From Thioclava sp. GXIMD2076 (GTDB taxonomy: Bacteria > Pseudomonadota > Alphaproteobacteria > Rhodobacterales > Rhodobacteraceae), in assembly GCF_037949795.1 (NCBI RefSeq), contig NZ_CP149934.1, positions 434,001 to 498,000 of the forward strand: a stretch of DNA of 64,000 nucleotides, read 5' to 3'. Shown here one piece after another: positions 32,631 to 47,896 of this stretch. Within the stretch, counting starts at the first letter, position 1. Every line of letters begins with the position of its first letter. The translations under genes and the position numbers were made by a program. A model generated the notes under the pieces. The model had not been told where the DNA came from, ran no database searches, and saw only the letters and a list, made by a program, of their open reading frames with translations.

Positions 32631-33548
32631 TTAGCGAATACCTTTGGCCGCGAGGTCGATGACCTGCTCGGCCTTGTCCTGCGTGATCAGGTTCGGACCC
32701 GAGGGCACATCGCCTGCAGGCATCAGCCCGTATTTGGCATTGAGCGCCAGGAAGGCCACCGGCAGATAGCCTTGCAGGAACTGCTGCTGGTCGATCGCGA
32801 AGGCCGCATCGCCATCAACAACCGATTGCAGGAAGGAGGACGACATATCGAAGGTCGCCACCAGCACGTCATCGCGCCCGATCGCCTTCACGGCCTTGAC
32901 CGAGGGTTCGCCCACGATGGGGGCCGACAGACCCAGAACCGTGTTCACATCGGGATCGGATTCAAGCGCGGCGCGGACCTTGGATTCCACCTCTGCCGGA
33001 TCGGTCATGGTCGGGATGACCTCGACCGGATTACCGAACCCCTCCTCGAAACCCGCACAGCGCTGATCGAGCGAGACATTGCCCACTTCCTGATTCACAC
33101 AGATGCCCTTGGTGCCGCCCATTTCCGCGAGCTTGACCCCTGCGGCCTTGCCCGCATCATATTCGGATTGGCCCACATGCAGCATCGCGCCCAGTTCCTT
33201 GGACACATCGCCACCCGAGTTCATCGAGATCACCGGAATACCGGCATCCACCGCGCGCTGGATCGACGGCCCGAGCGCGTCGGCATCGGGAATGCTCACA
33301 ACGAGCCCGTCGGGCTCCTGGTTCACGGCAGCATCGATCAACTGGCTCATCTGGACCATATCGAAAGTCTCGGGCGAGCGGACATCGACGGTCGCGCCGG
33401 TATCCTTTGCCGCCTCGGCGGCACCGTTTTTCACGACCGACCAGAACGGGTCACTGGCCTGACCATGGGTCACGACGATGATCTCTTGCGCCATCGCCGA
33501 TCCAGCCATCATCGCGGTCACAGCTGCCGTGGCAAAAAGGGTTTTCAT
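32631..33548 (-). CDS. Sugar (probable inositol) ABC transporter periplasmic binding protein
   Basis: Secreted type-I binding protein of 305 residues. The signal peptide MKTLFATAAVTAMMAGSAMAQ is cleaved near AMAQ. The mature domain starts EIIVVTHGQASDPFW and shows the ribose-binding fold: QMSQLIDAAVNQEPDGLVVSIPD, VISMNSGGDVSKELG, and LVATFDMSSSFLQSV. The start follows GGGAGGAGAG. It lies between iolG and the permease of the inositol operon, so inositol is the most likely ligand; a different polyol cannot be excluded. Confidence 0.92.
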   Translation of the reverse strand: MKTLFATAAVTAMMAGSAMAQEIIVVTHGQASDPFWSVVKNGAAEAAKDTGATVDVRSPETFDMVQMSQLIDAAVNQEPDGLVVSIPDADALGPSIQRAVDAGIPVISMNSGGDVSKELGAMLHVGQSEYDAGKAAGVKLAEMGGTKGICVNQEVGNVSLDQRCAGFEEGFGNPVEVIPTMTDPAEVESKVRAALESDPDVNTVLGLSAPIVGEPSVKAVKAIGRDDVLVATFDMSSSFLQSVVDGDAAFAIDQQQFLQGYLPVAFLALNAKYGLMPAGDVPSGPNLITQDKAEQVIDLAAKGIR

Positions 33549-36010: not shown

Positions 36011-36595
36011 TCAGATCCGGCCGTCCGCGCGTGCCTCCAGCGCCACCCGCATCTCGGCCACTTCACCCTCGCCGAACCCCCGCAGGCAGAGCCGCTCGAC
36101 AGGGCTCAGCTCACACCAGAACCGCTTGAGGACCATATCCCTCTCGGCACGCGGCGCGTTTTCCATCCGCAGGTCGTAGATCCTCTCGGCGGCGTCCAGA
36201 AGTCGCAAATGTAGCGCCGCCAGAAGCGCGCCGAAGGCCGCCTGACCGCTGGCCGAATTGCGCAACCGCAAGATCGCGCCCTCACCGATGGTCATGGTCT
36301 GCGCGAGCCCCCAGCCTAGCATATCGGCGGCCCGATGCGGCTTGACGGGCAGATGACCAGTCAGACCATAGGTCAACTCCAGCACACGCCGTTCATCGGC
36401 CGGCATCGACAGCACTACCCTGGCACAGGCCCGCTCGAGCGGGTCATCGGCTTCGTCAAGCCGTCCGCGCCGCGGCACGAGGCTCTGTGGCACGGACCCC
36501 TGTGGCGCATGACGGCGCGCCTCACGCGAAGGACGCGGCTGCAAGGTCCTGCGCACGAGACCATCGACTTTCGAGAGAATATATTCCGCCAGCAC
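36011..36595 (-). CDS. Uncharacterised protein with sigma-70 region-4-like segment
   Basis: A 194-residue protein I cannot assign to a family. Residues 64-81 (MPADERRVLELTYGLTG) followed by AADMLGWGLAQTMTIGEGAILRLRN (89-113) resemble sigma-70 region 4: the xPxxERxVLxLxYGLxG strand-turn and a helix-turn-helix ending in the conserved ExxAxxxLR. No region 2 is present. The N-terminal 45 residues are basic and rich in R, P and S. A second motif LSPVERLCLRGFG near residue 163 partly repeats the first. The start is GTG at 36595 with AAAGGG upstream. It is convergent with the LacI gene and divergent from urtA; its role is unknown. Confidence 0.6.
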   Translation of the reverse strand: MLAEYILSKVDGLVRRTLQPRPSREARRHAPQGSVPQSLVPRRGRLDEADDPLERACARVVLSMPADERRVLELTYGLTGHLPVKPHRAADMLGWGLAQTMTIGEGAILRLRNSASGQAAFGALLAALHLRLLDAAERIYDLRMENAPRAERDMVLKRFWCELSPVERLCLRGFGEGEVAEMRVALEARADGRI

Positions 36596-36830: not shown

Positions 36831-38027
36831 ATGAAAAAAACCAATCTGACCATCGCGGCTCTGGCCTTTGGCGCCGCTTCCGCCCAAGGCGCTTTCGCCG
36901 AGGACACCGTGAATGTGGGCGTTCTGCAATCGCTCTCGGGCACGATGGCGATCTCGGAAGTCACCGTGAAAAACGCCGAAGTCATGGCGATCGACGAGAT
37001 CAATGCCAATGGCGGTGTGATGGGCCACCAGATCAAGGCGATTGTCGAGGATGGCGCCTCCGATCCCGCGATCTTCGCGCAAAAAGCCACCAAACTGATC
37101 GAGAATGACGATGTCGCCACCGTCTTCGGCGGCTGGACCTCGGCCTCGCGCAAGGCGATGCTGCCGGTCTTCGAGCGCACGGGGAACCTGCTGTGGTATC
37201 CGGTCCAGTTCGAGGGTAACGAATGCTCGGCCAATATCATGTATTCGGGCGCCCAGCCCAACCAGCAGATCCTGCCCGCCTATGAATGGGCCAAGGCCGA
37301 AGGCGACAAGAGCTTCTTCCTCGTCGGTTCGGATTACGTCTTCCCGCGCACGGCCAACCTGATCGTGAAGAAACATATCGAGAAAGACGGCCTGACCATG
37401 GCGGGCGAGGAATATGTGCCCCTCGGCGGCACCGATTTCTCCGCTGTGGTCGCCAAGATCCGCGCGGCCAAGCCCGATATCATCCTCAACACGCTCAATG
37501 GCGATTCAAACGTGTCCTTCTTCAAACAGCTCGCCGCCTCGGGCATCACGCTGGAAGATACGCCGGTCATGAGCTTCTCGATCGCCGAGCAGGAAGCGCA
37601 AGCAATGGGCACCTCGCTGGTGGCAGGTTCCTATGCCGCATGGAACTATTTCGAGACCCTGCCGGGCGATGCGAACGCGAAATTCGTCGAGGCCTACCGC
37701 GCGAAATATGGCGCCGATGCCGCGATCACCGATCCGATGCTGCATGGCTATCTTGATGTCTATGCCTGGAAAGCAGCCGTAGAAAAGGCCGGCAGCTTCG
37801 AGACCGATGCCGTGCGCAAAGCCGCTGTCGACCTCGATGTGGCAACGCCTATGGGCGATGTGGCCTTCGCCCCCAACCAGTCGCTGACCCAGACCGCCTA
37901 TGTCGGCAAGCTCGACGAGAACGGCAAATTCGACATCGTCTGGAAATCCGAAGGTGAAATCACCCCCGAGCCCTATGATGCTCTCACCTTCCCGGGCAAA
38001 TCCTGCGACCTGAGCGCAACCAACTGA
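36831..38027 (+). CDS. urtA: Urea-type ABC transporter substrate-binding protein
   Basis: Periplasmic binding protein of 398 residues. The signal peptide MKKTNLTIAALAFGAASAQG is cleaved near AFA-E. Mature sequence VNVGVLQSLSGTMAISEVTVKNAE and VFGGWTSASRKAMLPVFE and LLWYPVQFEGNECSANIMYSG are typical of UrtA and of the related short-chain amide binding protein FmdD. It captures urea (or formamide/acetamide) for the UrtBC channel. It starts an operon of five subunits in the order binding protein, two permeases, two ATPases. No urease or amidase gene follows in the window, so urea versus amide cannot be settled here. Confidence 0.88.
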   Translation: MKKTNLTIAALAFGAASAQGAFAEDTVNVGVLQSLSGTMAISEVTVKNAEVMAIDEINANGGVMGHQIKAIVEDGASDPAIFAQKATKLIENDDVATVFGGWTSASRKAMLPVFERTGNLLWYPVQFEGNECSANIMYSGAQPNQQILPAYEWAKAEGDKSFFLVGSDYVFPRTANLIVKKHIEKDGLTMAGEEYVPLGGTDFSAVVAKIRAAKPDIILNTLNGDSNVSFFKQLAASGITLEDTPVMSFSIAEQEAQAMGTSLVAGSYAAWNYFETLPGDANAKFVEAYRAKYGADAAITDPMLHGYLDVYAWKAAVEKAGSFETDAVRKAAVDLDVATPMGDVAFAPNQSLTQTAYVGKLDENGKFDIVWKSEGEITPEPYDALTFPGKSCDLSATN

Positions 38028-38089: not shown

Positions 38090-38983
38090 ATGTTGGACAC
38101 CGCACTTGTTGTCGGGCAGATCTTCAACGGTTTCAGTGTTGCCTCGCTCTTTGTTCTCGCCGCTCTCGGTCTCGCGCTCAGCTTCGGGCTGATGCGGGTG
38201 ATCAATATGGCGCATGGCGAGATGCTGATGCTGGGCGGCTATCTGGCCTATCTCACCTATCTGGTCGTGCCGGGTCCGCTGGCGATCCTCGTCGCGATGC
38301 CGGTGGCCTTCCTCGGCGCGGCACTTCTGGGCGGCATCATGGAGCTGACCGTGGTGCGCAAACTCTCGGCGCGCCCGCTTGATACGCTTCTGGCCACATG
38401 GGGGGTCAGCCTCATCCTGCAACAGGCGGCGCGCTCGATCTTCGGCCCCATCGGAGTGGGGGTCACCGCGCCCGACTGGCTCAATACCGGCTTCATGCTG
38501 GCAGGTGTCTATTTCCCCTCGACCCGGATCTTCATCCTTCTGGTGGCGGTTCTGGTGCTGGTGGCGCTGGGACTTCTCATCGCGCGCACCCGGCTGGGTC
38601 TTCTGGTCCGCGCGGTCAATCAGGACCGCATGATGGCAAGCGCCTCGGGCATCAATGTCCGCCGCGTCGATCTGGCCGTCTTCTGCCTCGGCACGGGCAT
38701 CGCGGGGCTTGCGGGCGTGGTGCTCTCGCTTCTCGGACCCGTCACCCCCTCGGTCGGCCAGAGCTATATCATCCCCGCTTTCCTCGTGGTGGTCATGGGC
38801 GGGCTTGGCTCGATGGTGGGCACAACGATTGCCGCCATTATCCTCGGCCTCGTCTCGGCGATCAGCCAGATCTTCCTCGATGTCTCGATGAGCCAAGTGC
38901 TGATGCTGCTGGCCGTGATCATCTTCCTGCAATTCCGCCCGCAAGGCGTGGTGGCCACCCGCTCGCGCGCTCTGGAGGACTGA
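38090..38983 (+). CDS. urtB: Urea-type ABC transporter permease UrtB
   Basis: LivH-like inner-membrane permease of 297 residues. GFSVASLFVLAALGLALSFGLMRVINMAHGEMLMLGGY is the characteristic first part, and GLGSMVGTTIAAIILGLVSA lies near the end. It has about eight membrane segments. The shorter form lacks the long N-terminal extension of some UrtB proteins. The start follows AAGGAG. The next gene begins 1 base after its stop. Confidence 0.9.
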   Translation: MLDTALVVGQIFNGFSVASLFVLAALGLALSFGLMRVINMAHGEMLMLGGYLAYLTYLVVPGPLAILVAMPVAFLGAALLGGIMELTVVRKLSARPLDTLLATWGVSLILQQAARSIFGPIGVGVTAPDWLNTGFMLAGVYFPSTRIFILLVAVLVLVALGLLIARTRLGLLVRAVNQDRMMASASGINVRRVDLAVFCLGTGIAGLAGVVLSLLGPVTPSVGQSYIIPAFLVVVMGGLGSMVGTTIAAIILGLVSAISQIFLDVSMSQVLMLLAVIIFLQFRPQGVVATRSRALED

Positions 38984-38984
38984 T

Positions 38985-40046
38985 ATGACTGCAATTCACC
39001 GCTATGGCTGGATCGCCGTGCTGGCACTGGCCGTTCTCGCTCCCTCCTTCGTGTCTTCCTACGACCTCAATCTGCTGGGCCGTTTCCTCGCCATGGGCAT
39101 CCTTGCCATCGGCATCGTGCTGATCTGGGGCGAGGCCGGTATCCTCACGCTCGGACAAGGCGTATTCTTCGGACTGGGCGGCTATTCCATCGCCATGTAT
39201 ATGAAACTGGCCTCGCTGCCCGCGGGCAGCCTGCCCGATTTCATGGAATGGTCGGGCGTGATGGAGCTTCCCTGGTGGTGGGTGCCCTTTGCCAACCCCG
39301 CCTTTGCCATCGCCGCCATCATCGTAATCCCGACGGCTTTCGCGGCCCTCTTCTCGTGGCTCGTCTTCCGCCGCCGCATTGTGGGGGTCTATTTCGCCCT
39401 CATCACACAGGCCGTGGCGCTTACCTTTGCCACGCTGCTGACCAGCCAGCAAAGCACGACAGGCGGCTATAACGGGCTCACCGGCTTCACCGAGATCTTC
39501 GGCTTGCAACTGGGCACTCCGGAGGCCAACCGCATCCTCTATTTCGTCACACTGGCGCTTCTGGTCGTAGTCTTCGCCTTTACCAAATGGCTGACCGGCT
39601 CGCGCTACGGCACGCTTTTGCGCGCCACACGCGATGGCGAGAACCGCGTGCGCTTCTTGGGCTATAACACAACCCCCTACAAGGTCGTGGCCTTCGCATT
39701 CGCAGGCATGTTCGCATCGATTGCAGGGGCACTCTTTACGCTCCATGCCGGTGTGGTCTCGCCCGCATTCGTAGGCGTGGTGCCCTCGATCGAGATGGTG
39801 GTCTGGGTCGCGGTCGGCGGCCGCCACAGCCTCTGGGGCGCAGTCCTTGGCGCACTGGTGGTCAACCTTGCCAAGGACGTGATCTCCTCGGCCATGCCGG
39901 AAGCGTGGCTCTATGTGCTGGGCCTCGTCTTCATCCTGACGGTCATGTTCCTGCCCAATGGTATCGCCGGTCTGATCGAGGAGCTGATCGAGAAATCCCG
40001 TAACCGCCGCCCCCCCGAGGCCGAATTGGTGGAGGATGTGAAATGA
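38985..40046 (+). CDS. urtC: Urea-type ABC transporter permease UrtC
   Basis: LivM-like permease of 353 residues. Helices run from the start (WIAVLALAVLAPSFV). The motif LGRFLAMGILAIGIVLIWGEAGILTLGQGVFFGLGGY is typical of UrtC, and AVGGRHSLWGAVLGALVVN is the late conserved loop. It pairs with UrtB to form the channel. Its 3' end overlaps the urtD start by 4 nt (ATGA). Confidence 0.9.
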   Translation: MTAIHRYGWIAVLALAVLAPSFVSSYDLNLLGRFLAMGILAIGIVLIWGEAGILTLGQGVFFGLGGYSIAMYMKLASLPAGSLPDFMEWSGVMELPWWWVPFANPAFAIAAIIVIPTAFAALFSWLVFRRRIVGVYFALITQAVALTFATLLTSQQSTTGGYNGLTGFTEIFGLQLGTPEANRILYFVTLALLVVVFAFTKWLTGSRYGTLLRATRDGENRVRFLGYNTTPYKVVAFAFAGMFASIAGALFTLHAGVVSPAFVGVVPSIEMVVWVAVGGRHSLWGAVLGALVVNLAKDVISSAMPEAWLYVLGLVFILTVMFLPNGIAGLIEELIEKSRNRRPPEAELVEDVK

Positions 40047-40813
40047 ACGCCTATAGCCCAGTGACCCCCGATCCCTATATCCTGAAACTCGATGGTATCA
40101 CGGTGGATTTCGACGGGTTCAAAGCCATCGACAATTTCTCGATGACGCTCGAACGCGGCCAGCTGCGGGTGCTGATCGGCCCCAATGGCGCGGGCAAATC
40201 CACGCTCTGCGACACGATCATCGGGCGGGTGCAATCGGCCTCGGGAACGGTGACCTTCAACGGCGCCAATATCACCAACCTGCCCGAATTCGAAATCGTC
40301 CGCCGTGGCATCTGCCGTAAATTCCAGACACCGGGGGTGCTGCCCTCGCTCACCGTGCGCGACAACCTGCTCGTCTCGGCACGCAAGGATCGCCGCTGGT
40401 GGAAGGGCTTCGGCCATGGCGCCAAGCGCGAGGAGGCCCGGCAGGTTGATGATCTGCTGGAGAAGATCGGCCTGACCGACAGGGCAGACACCTATGCCCG
40501 CGATCTGGCCCATGGCGAGAAGCAATGGCTCGAGATCGGGATGGTGGTGGCCACGGGAGCCGAGCTGCTTCTGCTCGACGAGCCCACCGCCGGCATGGGG
40601 CCCAACGAGACCTCGAAGACGGCCAAGCTCATCCATTCGCTTCTGGGCGATCATGCGGTGCTGGTGATCGACCATGATATGGCCTTTGTCGAGGAACTTG
40701 GCGCCAAGGTCACCGTGATGCATCAGGGCAAATTCCTCAAACAGGGCTCGGTCGCCGACGTGCGTGCCGATGCCGAGGTCGCTGCCGTCTATCTTGGCCG
40801 CGCAAAGGAGTAA
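40043..40813 (+). CDS. urtD: Urea-type ABC transporter ATP-binding protein UrtD
   Basis: LivG-like ATPase of 256 residues. Walker A is GPNGAGKST, the Q-loop KFQTPGVLPSL, the signature-region LAHGEKQWLEIGM (an LSGGQ variant, LAHGE, usual in UrtD), Walker B LLLLDEPTAGM and the H-loop VIDHDMAFVE. The start overlaps urtC. A Shine-Dalgarno for urtE lies inside its last codons. Confidence 0.92.
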   Translation: MNAYSPVTPDPYILKLDGITVDFDGFKAIDNFSMTLERGQLRVLIGPNGAGKSTLCDTIIGRVQSASGTVTFNGANITNLPEFEIVRRGICRKFQTPGVLPSLTVRDNLLVSARKDRRWWKGFGHGAKREEARQVDDLLEKIGLTDRADTYARDLAHGEKQWLEIGMVVATGAELLLLDEPTAGMGPNETSKTAKLIHSLLGDHAVLVIDHDMAFVEELGAKVTVMHQGKFLKQGSVADVRADAEVAAVYLGRAKE

Positions 40814-40817
40814 GCCC

Positions 40818-41537
40818 ATGGACAGCCTGTTGAAAATGGAGCGCGTCGGCGCAGGTTACGGCCAGAGCCCCGTGCTGTTCGATATCGACCTTGATGTAGA
40901 GCGCGGCGGTGCGCTCGCCCTGATCGGGCGCAATGGCGTAGGCAAGACCACCCTTTTGCGCACCATCATGGGCGTTCAGAAAGCCACTAGGGGCCGCATC
41001 ACTCTGGACGGGGCGGATGTCACCTCGACCAAACCGCATGAGCGCTCGCGCGCGGGCATCGGCTTTGTGCCGCAGGGCCGCCATGTTTTCCCGCATCTGA
41101 GCGTAGAGGAAAACCTGCTCTCCGGGCTCTCGGCCCTGGCGGGGCGCGGCAAGGGGCTGATTGGCCGGGGCATCCCCGATCATATCTTCGATCTCTTCCC
41201 CAAGCTCGACCAGATCCGCCATCGTAAGGCGGGAGTTCTATCTGGCGGCGAGCAACAGCAGCTGGCGATCGGTCGGGCGCTCTGTGGCCAGCCGAAACTC
41301 CTGCTGCTCGACGAGCCCACTGAAGGCATCCAGCCCAATGTGGTCCAGCAGATCGAGGAGGCCCTGCGCCGCGTGCGCAGCGAGCTGGGGGTGACCATCA
41401 TCATCGTCGAGCAATATCTCGATTTCGCATGGTCCTTTGCCGATGAGTATTGCGTGCTGCAACGTGGGCGGCAGGTCCGTCAGGGACGCACGGCAGAGGA
41501 TACCGCCGCCGAAGTCGCGCATCTGGTCAATGTGTGA
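40818..41537 (+). CDS. urtE: Urea-type ABC transporter ATP-binding protein UrtE
   Basis: LivF-like ATPase of 239 residues. Walker A is IGRNGVGKTT, the signature LSGGEQQQLAIGRAL, and Walker B LLLLDEPTEGIQPN; the EGIQPN extension is a UrtE hallmark. The start at 40818 follows AAAGGAG and lies 4 bases after the urtD stop. It is last in the operon. The response regulator gene on the opposite strand ends 24 bases away. Confidence 0.93.
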   Translation: MDSLLKMERVGAGYGQSPVLFDIDLDVERGGALALIGRNGVGKTTLLRTIMGVQKATRGRITLDGADVTSTKPHERSRAGIGFVPQGRHVFPHLSVEENLLSGLSALAGRGKGLIGRGIPDHIFDLFPKLDQIRHRKAGVLSGGEQQQLAIGRALCGQPKLLLLDEPTEGIQPNVVQQIEEALRRVRSELGVTIIIVEQYLDFAWSFADEYCVLQRGRQVRQGRTAEDTAAEVAHLVNV

Positions 41538-41550
41538 TTTGTGACAATTT

Positions 41551-41577
41551 GGCCGAGCGGCCTATCCCTGCTCGGCC
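41551..41577. other. Hairpin between urtE and the response regulator gene
   Basis: 8-bp stem GGCCGAGC (41551-41558) and GCTCGGCC (41570-41577) around the response regulator stop, between two convergent genes. There is no clear U-tract on either strand. It could be a weak bidirectional terminator. Confidence 0.45.
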
Positions 41578-42455
41578 AGCACCTGCACCGCCATTGCCGC
41601 GGCAGTGGCCCGATTTTCCACGGATAATTTGGCATAGATCTGCAACAGGTGCTTTTTGACGGTGGCGACCGAATTCCCCAGAATGTCGGCAATGTCCTGA
41701 TTGGATTTTCCTGCGGCGACCCAGACAAGCACCTCCGCCTCGCGCTGGGTCAGCGGAAACCGGTCGCGCAGGATCTCCTCGCGCAGACCCGGACGGTCTT
41801 CGGTCACGCGGAACAGATATTCGCCCTCGCGCACCGGATTGAGATAATGGAACCCGATCTCCGCCTCGCCCAGAGGCACCACCGCACTCGCTCCTGCCTG
41901 ACGGGTCAGTGACAGAAGCTGCCCCACCAACGCATCGGTCAGCATCAACTGCCCGCCGTGGAACAGGCCACCCAAGAGCTCCTCGGCGCGTGGCGTGGTC
42001 CACAAGATCCGCCCGCCCGCATCAATCGCCATCAACGACCGGCCCGTGGCATCCAGCGCCGCCCGCGCGCCTTCGGCCAGACGCGCGTTGGACAGATGCA
42101 CGCGGATACGAGCGATCAGCTCCTCCAGCTTTATCGGCTTTGTGACATAATCGACCCCGCCCGCCGCCAATCCCGCCACCACATGTTCGGTATCTGACAG
42201 TCCGGTCATGAAGATGACGGGGATATTCTCGCGTCCCGGTGTCTGCTTGATGGTCCGCGTGGTGGTGAACCCGTCAAGACCCGGCATCACTGCATCCATC
42301 AAGATCACATGCGGCGCGATCTTGGCCAAAAGGTCCAGCGCCGCCTGACCGGAGGTCGCGACCAGCACCGTCATCCCCTCACGCTCCAGCGTGTCGGTCA
42401 GAAGCCCCAGTGTCTGCGGTGTGTCATCCACGATCAGGACGATATCCTCACTCAT
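41562..42455 (-). CDS. Response regulator, REC-PAS-LuxR type
   Basis: 297-residue DNA-binding response regulator. The receiver domain (1-125) has acidic pocket VDD at residues 9-11, phosphoacceptor D54 in ILMDAVMPGLDGF and K106 in YVTKPIK. A PAS-like middle segment (about 130-215) begins RSLMAIDAGGRILWTT. The LuxR helix-turn-helix is at about 232-290 (LTQREAEVLVWVAAGKSNQDIADIL). It overlaps the 3' end of the permease-kinase gene upstream by 8 nt, so the two are a pair. Targets are unknown; the adjacent convergent urea transporter operon is an obvious candidate. Confidence 0.9.
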   Translation of the reverse strand: MSEDIVLIVDDTPQTLGLLTDTLEREGMTVLVATSGQAALDLLAKIAPHVILMDAVMPGLDGFTTTRTIKQTPGRENIPVIFMTGLSDTEHVVAGLAAGGVDYVTKPIKLEELIARIRVHLSNARLAEGARAALDATGRSLMAIDAGGRILWTTPRAEELLGGLFHGGQLMLTDALVGQLLSLTRQAGASAVVPLGEAEIGFHYLNPVREGEYLFRVTEDRPGLREEILRDRFPLTQREAEVLVWVAAGKSNQDIADILGNSVATVKKHLLQIYAKLSVENRATAAAMAVQVLAEQG

Positions 42456-45400
42456 CGCCTATCTCCTCCAGCAGAGCCCGCAGCTCCTGTGCCAGCCGTG
42501 GCAGCTCGAACCCCTGCGCCAGCTGCATCCAATGCGCCACCGATCCAGCCGGGCGGCCCTCCAGAATATCCAGAACCCCGCGCCGGTGACCGATCTCCGC
42601 AGCCGCCAGCAAGCGTTCGAGCATCTCGCGCGGGATTTTTACCTGCGCCGCAGGCGGGCGGGCGGGTTGCGCCTCACGCCAGCGAAGGTCCAGAAGACGC
42701 CCGATCTCGGCCACGACTGCATCGAGATCGACCGGTTTGGGCAGGAAGGCGTTATGCACCCCCGCGCCCTCGGCATGGCTGTCATGAGCATTACCCGACA
42801 GCATCACGATCCTCATCTCTGACGAGAGCGCCCGCAACTTTCCGGCAAGCTCCCAGCCCGTCATGACCGGCATGGTGATGTCGAGAAGCGCCAGATCGGG
42901 GCGCAGCGAGGGCGCAAGGCGCAACGCCTCGGTCCCGTTCTGCGCCACCACGACCTGAAAGCCCAAAGGCGCAAGGATGCGGCGCAGGAGGGCCAGATGA
43001 TCGGCATCGTCATCGACCAGCAAAAGCCGTTTGCGTGGTCCCTCATAGCCCGCAATAGCCTGCGCCTGCCCCTGTGGTCCGCCCGATGCCTCGAACATCA
43101 GCAGCTGCAGGAACATGCGCGTGCCCTCGGCTGGCGCACTTTCGACGCGCAACTGTCCGCCCATGATCTCGACAAGAAGCTTGGTGATCGTGAGGCCCAG
43201 CCCCGTGCCCGGCACCAGATCGGCACGGGTGCCGCGATCGAACGGATCGAAGATACGGCCAAGATCCTCGGGCGCGATCCCCATGCCGGTATCGAACACC
43301 TCGACCTCGAGGATATGGCTGCGATAGCGCAGGCGCATCCCCACTTGCCCGGCTTCGGTGAATTTCACCGCATTGGAGAGCAGATTGATCAGCACCTGTC
43401 GCAGCCGCTTGCGGTCCACCAGAACCTGTCGCGGCAGCCAGCCCTGGCGGTCATAGACAAACTCGAGCCCCTTCGCCTCGGCCTGGAAACGGAAGATCTC
43501 GGCCAGCTGGTCCAGCAGCTCGGGAAGCGCCACGCGGTCGCGCGCCAGCACGAGCGTGCCGCTCTCGACACGGGAAATATCCTGCAACCCGTCCACCAGA
43601 TCGCCCAGATGCTCGGCCGAACGGCGGATCACGCCCACCGCCGAAGGCGCGGCCGAGATATCGCGCTCCATCAGCTGGGCATAGCCGTAGATCGCGTTGA
43701 GCGGCGAGCGGATCTCGTGGCTCAGCCCCGTAAGAAACCGCGATTTGGCAAAGTTCGCGGCCTCGGCCACCTCGCGGGCCTTGCGCGCCTCGGCCTCGGC
43801 CTCCTCGCGGGCCGAGACCTCGCGGCGCAGATCCTCGGCCTGACGCTCGAATTCATCCTCGACCTGCCGGCGGTTCTCATGGGCCAGCACGAAGAACCAC
43901 GCCATCAGCCCCGACAGGATCGCCAGCGCCACGAAGATGACCCAGAAGGCGGTGCCCACGGCCTGTGCGGGGATCTCTTCCATATCGCGGGTCACCTGAT
44001 GGCGCACGGCTCCCAGAAGCCCCGCCATGGTCAGGATGAAGACCAGCCCCAGCCCCGCCACCTGCCCGATCCGCGCCCGCCTGCGCGCCGAGAGACGTGC
44101 GGGCAACAACCGCTGCGACAGGGTGCGGATCTGCTGCGAGAGCCGTGCATCGGGCTTGCACAGATCGTGGCAGCGCCCCTCGAGCGAGCAGCACAGCGAG
44201 CAGATCGGCACGCCGTAAGCCGGACATTGGGCCATATCCTCGGGATCGAAGCGGTTGGCGCAGATGCCGCATTGGCACAGACCCTCCGCATCGGCAGGCG
44301 TCTGCGACTGGCGCGCGATATAGAATCGCCCGCCCGTGGCATAGGCCAGACAGGGCGCGGCCAGAAACGCGACCAGCAGCCCGACCGGCACACAGAAGGC
44401 CTGCGCCATCTCGCCCGCGAGCCCCGTCAGACACAGGATCGAGACCAGCACCGACAGCGCCATTGCCCCGCAGCCTACGGGATTGATGTCGTAAAGATGG
44501 GCGCGCTTGAACTCGATCAGCTTTGGTGAGAGCCCCAGCGGCTTGGCAATCGCCAGATCGCCCGCCACGGCCCCGAGCCAGCCCACCGCCAGAATACCGT
44601 AGAGATCGAGGATGCTCTCGAGCGCCCCGAACACGCCCAATTCCATGAGCATCAGCGCAAGGGCGGTGTTAAAGACCAGCCAGACCACACGACCCGGATG
44701 GTTATGGGTAAGGCGCGAGAAGAAATTCGACCAAGCGATAGAGCCCGCATAGGCATTGGTCACATTGATCTTTACCTGCGCGACACAGACGAAAACCCCC
44801 ATCACAACCAGCGCGATCAGCGGATTTCCGAAGACGGTGCGGAAGGCCAGATCGAAGGCCACAGCAGGCTGGGCGGCCAGATCGGGCGGGACACCCGCGC
44901 GGATCGCCATGACCGTCAGCCACGAGCCGAGCGCGATCTTGGCGCCCGCGATCAGCACCCAGCCGGGCCCCGCAAGCCCCAGCGCCAGACGCCTGCGCCA
45001 GCCATCGCGTTCGGGCAGGAAGCGCAGATAGTCGACCTGTTCGCCGATCTGCGGCAGGAGCGACAGCAACAGAGAGATCCCTGCCCCGATCTGGATCAGA
45101 TCGAATCCCGAGGCAGACCCGCCAAAGCCCAGCCATGCGCCCGCACCGGGCGCGGTTCCGCCCTGCCCTGCCATGAGAAGCACGAGGAGCGGCGCGATCT
45201 GGAACACCAGCCAAACCGGCTGGCTCAGCCGTTGCATTTTGGAGATCCTTCGGATCCCGAAAGCCGCAATCGGCAGCACCACCAGCGCCGAGACCAGATG
45301 CCCCAGCCAGAGCGGCACCCCGAGCGCCAGATTGAGCGCCACCGACATGATCGAGGCCTCGATGGCAAAGAGCACAAAGGTGAAAGACGCATAGACCAGA

Positions 45401-45750
45401 GAGGTGATGGTCGAGCCGATATAGCCAAAGCCTGCCCCCCGCGTGAGCAGGTCGATATCGAGCCCCGAGCGCGCCGCATTGCGGGTAATCGGCCAACCGA
45501 TCAGCAGGGCCAGCACGATCAAACCGCCGATGGCTGCCAGCGTATCGCGTGTGCCATGCGCCAGCGTCAGCGAGCCGCCGATGGCCTCGCAGGCCAGAAA
45601 GGCCAGTGCTCCGACAGCGGTATGGGCCACGCGGGACGGTGTCAGCCGCGCCCTGCGCGCGGTGAAGCGCAGCGCGAAATCCTCCAGCGTCTCGTTGGCC
45701 GCCCATTGGTTGTAGTCGCGGCGCTCGGGCGCGATGAACTGGTGCCGCAA
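42448..45750 (-). CDS. NCS1 permease-linked hybrid histidine kinase
   Basis: 1100-residue fusion. Residues 1 to about 475 form an NCS1-like permease with about twelve membrane helices (DYNQWAANETLEDFALRF at the start, LLTRGAGFGYIGSTITS, IGEQVDYLRFLPER, KINVTNAYAGSIAWSNFF). Residues 492-531 hold a Cys cluster (CQCGIC, then C, CSLCC, C and HDLC). Two further membrane segments (about 561-624) and a coiled coil (625-670) follow. H678 in LSHEIRSPL is the HisKA phosphosite, and the HATPase lies at about 780-890. The receiver domain has D957 in LLDITMP. Last comes a short unassigned tail. I propose a TTG start at 45750 because AAGGAAGG stands just upstream; the open frame extends 39 residues further without family sequence. 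Confidence 0.87.
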   Translation of the reverse strand: MRHQFIAPERRDYNQWAANETLEDFALRFTARRARLTPSRVAHTAVGALAFLACEAIGGSLTLAHGTRDTLAAIGGLIVLALLIGWPITRNAARSGLDIDLLTRGAGFGYIGSTITSLVYASFTFVLFAIEASIMSVALNLALGVPLWLGHLVSALVVLPIAAFGIRRISKMQRLSQPVWLVFQIAPLLVLLMAGQGGTAPGAGAWLGFGGSASGFDLIQIGAGISLLLSLLPQIGEQVDYLRFLPERDGWRRRLALGLAGPGWVLIAGAKIALGSWLTVMAIRAGVPPDLAAQPAVAFDLAFRTVFGNPLIALVVMGVFVCVAQVKINVTNAYAGSIAWSNFFSRLTHNHPGRVVWLVFNTALALMLMELGVFGALESILDLYGILAVGWLGAVAGDLAIAKPLGLSPKLIEFKRAHLYDINPVGCGAMALSVLVSILCLTGLAGEMAQAFCVPVGLLVAFLAAPCLAYATGGRFYIARQSQTPADAEGLCQCGICANRFDPEDMAQCPAYGVPICSLCCSLEGRCHDLCKPDARLSQQIRTLSQRLLPARLSARRRARIGQVAGLGLVFILTMAGLLGAVRHQVTRDMEEIPAQAVGTAFWVIFVALAILSGLMAWFFVLAHENRRQVEDEFERQAEDLRREVSAREEAEAEARKAREVAEAANFAKSRFLTGLSHEIRSPLNAIYGYAQLMERDISAAPSAVGVIRRSAEHLGDLVDGLQDISRVESGTLVLARDRVALPELLDQLAEIFRFQAEAKGLEFVYDRQGWLPRQVLVDRKRLRQVLINLLSNAVKFTEAGQVGMRLRYRSHILEVEVFDTGMGIAPEDLGRIFDPFDRGTRADLVPGTGLGLTITKLLVEIMGGQLRVESAPAEGTRMFLQLLMFEASGGPQGQAQAIAGYEGPRKRLLLVDDDADHLALLRRILAPLGFQVVVAQNGTEALRLAPSLRPDLALLDITMPVMTGWELAGKLRALSSEMRIVMLSGNAHDSHAEGAGVHNAFLPKPVDLDAVVAEIGRLLDLRWREAQPARPPAAQVKIPREMLERLLAAAEIGHRRGVLDILEGRPAGSVAHWMQLAQGFELPRLAQELRALLEEIGDE

Positions 45751-45900: not shown

Positions 45901-46179
45901 TCAGGCTTTTGCCGCTTTGGCAGGTTTCGAGGGCATCTCGATATTGATCTCGAGGCTCTCGATATCGTCACCGCGTTCCATGCGGATATCGACTTCCTCA
46001 TCAGCCACTTCGACATATTTGCGGATCACCGCAATGATGTCGCGTTGCAGCTGGGGCAGATAATCCCCGCCCGAGGAATTGCTGCCGCGTTCATGCGCCA
46101 GCAGGATCTGCAGGCGCTCCTTGGCAGCATTGGCGGTCTGCTTCTTGCGGGGTTTGAGAGAGAATCCGAATAAGCTCAT
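45901..46179 (-). CDS. minE: Cell division topological specificity factor MinE
   Basis: 92-residue activator of the MinD ATPase that sets the oscillation placing the FtsZ ring at midcell. The N-terminal amphipathic membrane-targeting part MSLFGFSLKPRKKQTANAAKERLQILLAHER and the beta domain YLPQLQRDIIAVIRKYVEV plus MERGDDIESLEINIEMP are textbook. The start overlaps the minD stop by 4 nt. The Ala/Lys-rich tail KPAKAAKA is a local extension. Confidence 0.95.
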   Translation of the reverse strand: MSLFGFSLKPRKKQTANAAKERLQILLAHERGSNSSGGDYLPQLQRDIIAVIRKYVEVADEEVDIRMERGDDIESLEINIEMPSKPAKAAKA

Positions 46180-47045
46180 GCCGTCCGTCCGAAGATACGG
46201 CCCAACAGACCCGGTTTCTTCTCTCCTTCGATTTTCATTTCGACCTTCTCGCCCAGCAGGCGCGCCACGGCATCCTCATAGGCACGGCCTGCCGAGGACG
46301 GATCATCCAGCGTCACCGGCGTGCCCACATTCGAGGCGCGCAGGACGGCAGGGCTTTCGGGCACGATCCCCAGAAGCGGCACGGCCAGGATCTCCAGTAC
46401 GTCTTCCACGGTCATCATCTCGCCCTTGTCGATCCGGGCCTGATCATGACGGGTCAGCAGCACCTGCGCCTTCACGCCGGTGCCATCTTTCTCGGCCCGC
46501 TGGGTCTTCGACGCCAGAAGGCCCAGAACGCGGTCACTATCGCGCACCGAGGACACTTCGGGGTTGGTCACGACCACGGCTTCATCAGCGAAATACATCG
46601 CCAGCTGCGCACCGCGCTCGATCCCTGCGGGGCTGTCGCAGACGATATAGTCGAATTCCTGCTTCAGCTCGTTGAGAACCGCCTCGACGCCTTCTTGCGT
46701 CAGCGCATCCTTGTCGCGGGTCTGCGAGGTCGGCAGGATCTGCAGCGTCTCGACGCGCTTGTCCTTGATCAGCGCCTGTTTCAGGCGCGCATCGCCCTGA
46801 ATAACGTTGATAAAATCGAAGACCACACGGCGTTCGCAGCCCATGATCATATCGAGGTTGCGCAGGCCCACATCGAAATCGATGACGACGGTCTTGTGAC
46901 CGCGCTTGGCAAGCCCTGCCGAAATCGCCGCAGCGGAGGTCGTCTTGCCGACGCCCCCCTTACCGGAGGTGATGACGATCACCCGACCGAGCGGCGGCTT
47001 TTCCTTCAGCTCTTCCTTGGCCTTATCTGTGGTTTGGGTGCTCAT
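46176..47045 (-). CDS. minD: Septum site-determining ATPase MinD
   Basis: ATPase of 289 residues. The deviant Walker A ITSGKGGVGKTT begins at about residue 27, FDVGLRNLDMIMGCERR is the switch I/dimer segment, and VCDSPAGIE the switch II. The C terminus EGEKKPGLLGRIFGRTA forms the amphipathic membrane-binding helix. An N-terminal extension of about 20 charged residues precedes VIVITSG. The start at 47045 has GGAGAG upstream and overlaps the minC stop by 4 nt. It recruits MinC to the membrane and oscillates with MinE. Confidence 0.95.
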   Translation of the reverse strand: MSTQTTDKAKEELKEKPPLGRVIVITSGKGGVGKTTSAAAISAGLAKRGHKTVVIDFDVGLRNLDMIMGCERRVVFDFINVIQGDARLKQALIKDKRVETLQILPTSQTRDKDALTQEGVEAVLNELKQEFDYIVCDSPAGIERGAQLAMYFADEAVVVTNPEVSSVRDSDRVLGLLASKTQRAEKDGTGVKAQVLLTRHDQARIDKGEMMTVEDVLEILAVPLLGIVPESPAVLRASNVGTPVTLDDPSSAGRAYEDAVARLLGEKVEMKIEGEKKPGLLGRIFGRTA

Positions 47046-47896
47046 GCAAAGCTCTCCATGCAAAGTCTGTCATCTTCGAGCCATGCCTGCACAGCACGAT
47101 GGCGCAGGTCGTCTCCGATGGTTTCACTGGTACGGTATAGGCCCGCCACGGCCAGAAGTTCGGCATCCAGATCGCGGCAGAAGATCCGGCAGCTCTCGTC
47201 GCCGAACACCCCTGCCATCGCACGTCCGCGCAGCGCGCCATAGACGTGGATATTGCCCGCCGCCACCAGCTCGGCGCCCGAGGCGACCGATCCCAGCACG
47301 ATCAGGTCGCCATGTTCGGCCACGATCTGCTGGCCCGAACGGACGGGGTTGCGGATGGTCATGGTCTGCGCGCCACTGCTGCGCTGTTCGGCCTCCGCCT
47401 CCGCCTGTTGCTCGGCAGGCTCCTCGGCGGTGGCATTCCTGCCCAGCTGGTGGGCGCCGTTGCGACCCTTCGGGTTGAGCGGCTTGCGCGGCTCGTGCAC
47501 GGGGCCGTCGCGCCCCGAGATCACGGGAATCAGGCCAAGCTGGTCTGCGGTGTCGAGCTGCACCTTGCTGGCATTCTGCACCCCGAAGACCGACAGGTTG
47601 CGCGCCCGCATGTGGCGCACGAGGTCTTGAATATCGGTGGGGTTGGCAAAGCCCGGCACATCGGCGAAATCGATCACCATGGGCGAGCCGACCAGAAGCT
47701 GCGGCGTTTTCTCGAGCTGCTGGTCGAGGGCGGCATAAAAGGCCTCGTCCGGCGTATCGGATTCCATACGCAGCGCAATCGCGGTCAGGAACCTGCCGCG
47801 GAAATGGAAGGGCCGTGCCTGCGCTACGGCCTGTGCTGCGGGCCCCTCGGCCCGGCTACGGATATCGTCTTTCGCCACGACGAAACTGCTCCTCAT
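47042..47896 (-). CDS. minC: Septum site-determining protein MinC
   Basis: FtsZ-assembly inhibitor of 284 residues. The N-terminal domain (to about 125) is followed by a low-complexity linker rich in A, E and Q (about 140-175: AEEPAEQQAEAEAEQ). The C-terminal beta-helix domain carries HVYGALRGRAMAGV and the MinD-contacting GDLIVLGSVASGAELVAAGNI. It is first in minCDE. No recognisable Shine-Dalgarno precedes the ATG at 47896, so the message may be leaderless or the start slightly off. Confidence 0.92.
   Translation of the reverse strand: MRSSFVVAKDDIRSRAEGPAAQAVAQARPFHFRGRFLTAIALRMESDTPDEAFYAALDQQLEKTPQLLVGSPMVIDFADVPGFANPTDIQDLVRHMRARNLSVFGVQNASKVQLDTADQLGLIPVISGRDGPVHEPRKPLNPKGRNGAHQLGRNATAEEPAEQQAEAEAEQRSSGAQTMTIRNPVRSGQQIVAEHGDLIVLGSVASGAELVAAGNIHVYGALRGRAMAGVFGDESCRIFCRDLDAELLAVAGLYRTSETIGDDLRHRAVQAWLEDDRLCMESFA

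Follow-up and report, generated by a model that had tools for sequence, protein, structure and literature searches.

A hybrid histidine kinase with an NCS1-fold permease domain, a probable sensor for urea and small amides

Why should a histidine kinase begin with a permease? The question is raised by a gene in a stretch of 64,000 nucleotides of Thioclava sp. GXIMD2076 (contig NZ_CP149934.1, positions 434,001 to 498,000; hereafter the window), which encodes a hybrid sensor histidine kinase whose N-terminal half has the predicted fold of an NCS1 permease. The kinase is accompanied by a LuxR-type response regulator, and the pair lies beside the urea transporter genes urtABCDE. In our view the protein is probably a permease-derived sensor for urea (for amides in sister clades) that drives the linked uptake and degradation genes. 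The domain order, the NCS1 fold of the predicted models, the conserved gene linkage and the co-occurrence with window-type urt genes within the genus are established.

The preliminary description of this DNA, made from the sequence alone, had read the gene as one unbroken chain. Translation starts at a TTG codon (45750). A database protein entry of the same length (1100 amino acids) is 100% identical over the match, and plasmid p3 of Thioclava sp. 'Guangxiensis' (GenBank; identical with the window's strain or very close to it, hereafter the near strain) has a single coding sequence (CDS) of equal length, labelled 'ATP-binding protein', hence the gene is not split by a frameshift or a stop. The order of the parts is NCS1-fold permease, eight-cysteine cluster, membrane hairpin, HisKA, HATPase, receiver and C-terminal helices (Table 1). 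In a Pfam run whose numbering begins 39 residues upstream, HisKA, HATPase and REC exceeded their cut-offs and nothing credible was found in the rest of the kinase chain; the NCBIfam matches listed (25 of 159 matching families) were on the kinase and receiver part. Conservation was assessed in an alignment of 79 of the 120 homologues listed from a search that scored the 8000 candidates sharing most words. The HisKA histidine (H678) and the receiver aspartate (D957) are invariant in all 79, in other words the protein is a hybrid histidine kinase.

Each of the eight cysteines between the permease and the kinase (C494, C497, C509, C517, C520, C521, C527 and C531) is invariant in the 79 homologues, and the resemblance of the cluster to a RING finger is weak (E 0.3 and E 5.5). 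The N and C termini of NCS1 transporters are both cytoplasmic, and going by this topology the cluster would face the cytoplasm. Hydropathy indicates two more membrane segments, near 560-583 and 593-625, and in the model a long helix (592-652) runs into HisKA. The kinase domains, the cysteine cluster and the additional membrane segments had all been proposed in the preliminary description and are retained here. A canonical HPt domain was considered for the C terminus and rejected, the candidate His1055 being a tyrosine in 18 of the 79 homologues.

The permease half itself lies below the detection limit of the family model. Pfam gave zero matches in this part even at E<=10, PF02133 included, and in a PF02133 search of the window's own genome the permease half of the kinase was not among the matches listed. 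A profile comparison with 25 NCS1 proteins (hhalign) gave a probability of 99.4% over 424 columns, and the solved folds nearest to the AlphaFold models are CodB and Mhp1, the fold being kept over about 400 residues. Because the Pfam NCS1 model fails, we read the permease half, as modelled, as a divergent NCS1-fold clade; as regards the earlier claim of a fusion between an NCS1 permease and a hybrid kinase, the profile comparison and the fold sustain the kinship, whereas recognition by the Pfam model is lacking. Matching the permease profile to solved structures by sequence was tried as well and gave nothing credible, the two matches up to E 10 being a nanobody (1.4) and a RING finger (5.5).

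Residues were mapped onto Mhp1 by profile alignments, without superposed coordinates, and the Mhp1 numbers are counted from the alignment; in Mhp1, S312 and T313 form the Na2-site Ser/Thr pair of TM8, and W117, Q121, W220, N318 and Q42 are further residues with functional roles. Shared with the NCS1 transporters CodB and Mhp1 are, besides the fold, a D..R motif after TM6 and the asparagine of TM8 (N332, equivalent to N318, 79/79). In contrast to these transporters, the protein carries a fused kinase, has Glu (E131, 79/79) in place of Gln121 and has Lys-Ile (K327/I328, 79/79) in place of Ser312-Thr313, i.e. the Na2-site pair is absent. Position 127, the W117 equivalent, is Leu or Phe and position 232, the W220 equivalent, is mostly Leu, Val or Ile. 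Both stacking tryptophans thus appear to be gone and, judging from the alignment, the sodium site could not be built in the usual way. Several polar pocket positions are retained together with the fold, E131, K327 and N332 being invariant.

Two stand-alone relatives, L209 and L210, have Arg and Lys, respectively, at the sodium-site position and Glu at the Gln121 position. Since these kinase-free proteins share the Lys/Arg and Glu features, we regard the features as traits of the clade that are not tied to the fusion, and the idea that the sodium site was lost when the permease became a sensor was dropped. L209 exceeds the PF02133 cut-off and L210 has no Pfam family match. The L209 permease (L209:8949-10442, plus strand; E 2e-46) is followed by a carbon-nitrogen hydrolase gene, and its genome (G473) contains the kinase too.

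How widespread is this architecture? The permease profile matched in 54 of 398 genomes and 37 of 213 genera in a sample of the phylum (E<=0.001), and in 20 of 289 genomes and 14 of 224 genera in a sample of the class, where every genome has one copy and all frames are at least 1130 aa long. In the phylum sample 57 places had E-values below 1e-200; 54 of these fall in frames of at least 1122 aa and the other three in frames of 894, 899 and, on a short contig, 1026 aa. Two more frames, of 552 aa (E 2e-46) and 489 aa (E 4e-6), seem to encode stand-alone proteins. Few weak intermediates were thus met in either sample. A contig scan found at least 581 confirmed stretches with a relative, the best 80 of which make up the named sample (22 of the 80 are from Bradyrhizobium). 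Other carriers of the gene include Sinorhizobium fredii NGR234 and Methylobacterium. The family is common, but annotation does not reveal it: a permease Pfam label is absent from all 120 homologues listed. The shorter frames of 894 and 899 aa (L201 and L203), which have fmdA downstream on the same strand, are possibly kinases without a receiver domain.

The neighbourhood of the homologues was the check proposed in the preliminary description, and its outcome supports the proposed link to nitrogen genes. A locus was counted as linked if urtA/B/C, fmdA, amiE, ureC, urea carboxylase or allophanate hydrolase was found within the fetched stretch (about 10 kb per side, several cut by contig ends) by tblastn at thresholds set for this analysis. 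Linkage was seen at 51 of 53 loci of the phylum sample (urt 45, fmdA 34, amiE 19, ureC 10), at 15 of 19 of the class sample (urt in all 15) and at 75 of 80 named loci (urt in 70), as against none of 20 control stretches, whose positions were hand-picked in 20 genomes; the named and unnamed samples may share organisms and the three counts are not summed as independent. The unlinked loci are L163 and L208, both cut by contig ends, in the phylum sample, L145, L150, L151 and L152 in the class sample, and L006, L013, L015, L077 and L079 among the named loci, of which L077 and L079 are on contigs under 7 kb. NCBIfam confirmed formamidase FmdA, aliphatic amidase, urease alpha, UrtA-E, urea carboxylase and allophanate hydrolase on representatives. 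Where urtA was scored, it is upstream on the opposite strand in 121 of 127 places (68/70 named, 13/15 class, 40/42 phylum); the window and its two genus relatives have a convergent layout instead.

The neighbours also bear on the ligand. Given that the nearest solved folds are CodB, which transports cytosine, and Mhp1, which transports hydantoins, one might think that the kinase detects a classical NCS1 substrate (a nucleobase, hydantoin or allantoin) as a sign of how well nitrogen is supplied, urea being what this substrate is broken down to. We consider this very improbable, as the tryptophans that stack in Mhp1 are replaced and the genes nearby encode, among others, formamidase, aliphatic amidase, urease and urea carboxylase; the 45 largest neighbour clusters, not all of which were identified and for which no dedicated search was made, contained no recognised hydantoinase or allantoinase. 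Urea and small amides are therefore likelier ligands than the cytosine, hydantoin or allantoin favoured at first.

In the window, all five Urt proteins exceed the NCBIfam cut-offs and the kinase and regulator genes, which overlap by 8 nt in the near strain too, run tail to tail with urtABCDE, as had been described. The partner is a LuxR/NarL-type response regulator with a REC and a GerE DNA-binding domain; the PAS domain once attributed to it was not found, Pfam giving REC, GerE and weaker HTH matches. The layout on plasmid p3 of the near strain is identical, i.e. minC-minD-minE, kinase, regulator and then urtEDCBA in the opposite orientation. The strongest UrtA-type protein of the window genome is the window's own. 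Among 16 genomes of the genus this type of UrtA occurs only in three (G000, G010 and G011), the other 13 having paralogues of 41-45%, and the kinase is present in exactly the same three among the 13 same-genus genomes tested. Kinase and window-type urt genes thus co-occur across the genus.

Whether urea and amides are told apart within the family was investigated on a FastTree phylogeny of 117 permease halves (of 155 kinases) and an outgroup, which is so distant (branch 4.74) that the root is unsure; the fragment L208 and rows that shared both a label and more than 90% identity were left out. Urease- and amide-linked relatives appear mostly separate on this tree: four changes between amide and urease or urea carboxylase linkage are needed among 86 labelled rows. 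The clade of the window protein (support 100) has 23 rows, nine of them linked to urease, eight to urt only, two to urea carboxylase, four to none of these and zero to amide genes. Five genomes have two copies, and in four of these one copy is located by amide genes and the other by urease; such paired paralogues within one genome are a natural test of ligand choice.

The sequence columns were then compared between the 96 amide-linked rows and a urea set of 26 rows, i.e. the 23 clade rows and three near-copies; the set was read off the tree, so that the comparison is descriptive and no independent test. Among columns 5-639 only 54, 127 and 233 fully split the two. The urea clade has Cys54, Leu127 and Pro233 in 26 of 26 rows, and the amide-linked rows have L/M, F and mostly A. 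By the mapping onto Mhp1, column 127 is the equivalent of the pocket residue W117, column 233 adjoins the W220 equivalent and column 54 is on TM1, three residues past the Gln42 equivalent; a retuning of the binding pocket would be expected to give such a pattern. An insert at columns 198-201 is nearly private to the window lineage.

These columns also bear on the suggestion that the permease half is a membrane anchor, with the cysteine cluster sensing redox or a metal and the neighbours being simply its regulon. All eight cysteines are invariant, which would suit this suggestion, and the RING-like matches are weak. The three columns that separate urea- from amide-linked rows nevertheless belong to the permease half, at the pocket as mapped or close to it, and not to the cysteine cluster. 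Neither this nor the invariance of E131, K327 and N332 at pocket-equivalent positions would be expected if that half served purely as an anchor. We judge the anchor improbable.

The most economical reading remains a sensor. What it binds, which way it responds, how the signal passes through the cysteine cluster and which genes the regulator targets we infer as follows. The NCS1-fold domain would bind urea or, in sister clades, short-chain amides such as formamide and acetamide, and binding would move the permease between conformations. The cytoplasmic cysteine cluster and the membrane hairpin would relay this shift to HisKA, which would phosphorylate the receiver in the same chain as well as the LuxR-type regulator. 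Once phosphorylated, this regulator would turn on the linked uptake and degradation genes: urtABCDE in the window, and urease elsewhere in the genome.

Several observations weigh against this reading. The urea-linked set is a single clade, so that its three columns might simply reflect shared ancestry. When the comparison is widened to all 128 remaining rows, column 54 is the only one outside an insert that still separates; columns 127 and 233 then overlap in one row or more. In two other urease-linked groups residue 54 is still Leu and residue 127 mostly Phe; one of them changes 229, 230, 232 and 233, the other mainly 230 and 232. In the fifth genome with two copies, G377, formamidase genes lie beside both. 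Five full-length stretches, from Azospirillum (L006), L145 and the Tistrella-like group (L150-L152, with zero urea or amide genes within about 10 kb), have no such neighbour. In the window genome, urease alpha is on a different contig, in two pieces at that contig's two ends, and a search for the FmdA family gave no match, so local control of degradation is not supported there. A non-redundant set of 64 divergent intergenic stretches, out of 70, yielded no convincing common DNA motif. The candidate regulator-binding motifs were rejected as being at or barely above composition shuffles: the top 7-mer was in 14 stretches (shuffled maximum 13), the 8-mer in 7 (8), the 9-mer in 5 (4) and the palindrome in 6 (5).

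A further objection comes from CbrA, whose transporter domain is reported to bind and transport histidine, yet histidine left the kinase activity unchanged in vitro (PMC7096432). By analogy, the permease half might transport urea or amides as a transceptor, the kinase reading the flux or an internal product (ammonium, formate) rather than binding. The preserved fold and polar pocket positions, and the existence of the kinase-free relative L209 beside a carbon-nitrogen hydrolase, would agree with this. However, urtABCDE already provides uptake at most loci (urt in 45/53, 15/19 and 70/80), and sodium-coupled transport is unlikely because the Mhp1 Na2 Ser/Thr pair is Lys-Ile in 79/79; the permease half may be coupled to protons. 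On balance we find the transceptor unlikely.

The closest functional parallels of the proposed sensor are the SLC5/STAC kinases CbrA, CrbS/MxtR and RpuS, and PrlS, another SLC5-type kinase, in which the N-terminal part of the sensor kinase is likewise a complete transporter of the LeuT fold (PMC7918813, PMC7096432; RpuS PMC9100948). CrbS/MxtR is described as a hybrid, like the window kinase, and PrlS as a hybrid with a LuxR-type partner, as here (PMC7918813, PMC7096432); CbrA also has no Na2 Ser/Thr pair and is not stimulated by sodium (PMC7096432). Unlike in these kinases, the transporter domain of the window protein is nearest to NCS1, the neighbours are urea and amide genes, and the eight-cysteine cluster and a transmembrane hairpin stand between transporter and kinase. 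Pfam found nothing credible as STAC or PAS in that interval, where no dedicated STAC profile was used. In its mode of action the protein would resemble CbrA and CrbS, although the evidence so far does not allow us to place it in the SLC5/STAC family. AmiC/AmiR is likewise a ligand sensor that controls an aliphatic amidase (acetamidase) operon (PMC13209695); in that system a periplasmic-binding-type domain in AmiC is paired with AmiR, an RNA-binding antiterminator, whereas here a membrane kinase would act with a DNA-binding regulator.

A light search of the literature found no study of, or experiment on, an NCS1-kinase fusion or this kinase/regulator pair. A 2026 genome paper on Ectopseudomonas guguanensis G3 lists unnamed 'HK' and LuxR genes beside urtABCDE, with fmdA in the same locus-tag range (PMC13296017); the gene set is similar and its HK may belong to the family. 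In the passages on this locus only genes are named, and neither a permease domain nor a ligand is proposed. Few transporter-kinase fusions have been studied and the examples cited here all have an SLC5 domain. If our reading is true, a second transporter family was independently turned into a kinase input, and a membrane sensor is predicted for urea and formamide-type amides; such a sensor is most likely widespread and little-studied. Beyond this, it is conceivable, although we would not count on it, that the homologues form a broad unnamed class of transceptor-kinases in Pseudomonadota at large. Their NCS1-like permease, independent of sodium and with Lys at the sodium site, would sense urea or small amides and signal through a RING-like metal cluster, and its pocket would have been retuned between urea and amides several times, which gave rise to paired sensors in one genome.

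Table 1. Features of the kinase locus in the window
Feature	Position (strand)	Residues	Basis or remark
Hybrid sensor histidine kinase with NCS1-fold permease domain	42448..45750 (-)	1100 aa	Pfam, models, profile comparison, near-strain CDS
NCS1-fold permease domain	44326..45705 (-)	about 16-475	
Eight-cysteine cluster	44158..44271 (-)	494-531	possible RING-like metal site
Extra transmembrane hairpin	43876..44073 (-)	about 560-625	hydropathy and two helices in models
HisKA (H678) and HATPase	43102..43749 (-)	668-883	Pfam PF00512, PF02518
Receiver domain (D957)	42706..43023 (-)	910-1015	Pfam PF00072
C-terminal helical domain	42451..42639 (-)	1038-1100	four helices in model
Response regulator, REC and LuxR-type HTH	41562..42455 (-)		Pfam PF00072, PF00196
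urtA, urea ABC transporter binding protein	36831..38027 (+)		TIGR03407 526.7 bits, cut-off 492.75
urtB	38090..38983 (+)		TIGR03409 above cut-off
urtC	38985..40046 (+)		TIGR03408 above cut-off
urtD	40043..40813 (+)		TIGR03411 above cut-off
urtE	40818..41537 (+)		TIGR03410 above cut-off; start per near strain, longest ORF from 40764

Some homologues have other surroundings. In the Azospirillum-type loci L145, L006 and L013 no urea or amide neighbours were seen, and a chemoreceptor-like gene is near the pair in L145 and L013. Conjugative Klebsiella plasmids carry relatives too: one was found in 342 Klebsiella plasmid records, many of them probably from near-identical strains, and the 12 Klebsiella rows listed show about 48% identity. 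In two loci, L289 (NZ_CP097412.1) and L291 (NZ_CP089401.1), the kinase gene points away from urtABCDE, a formamidase gene is present as well, and IS elements and clpK/hsp20 lie close by.

As for the rest of the window, minCDE (45901-47896) adjoins the kinase, and the near strain carries this segment together with cyd-type genes on a 621-kb plasmid. A gene at 32631-33548 (-) encodes a binding protein nearest to the rhizopine ABC transporter type, under the NCBIfam cut-off. Between urtA and a LacI-type regulator there is an unnamed gene of 194 aa (36011-36595, minus strand), which is labelled hypothetical in the near strain.

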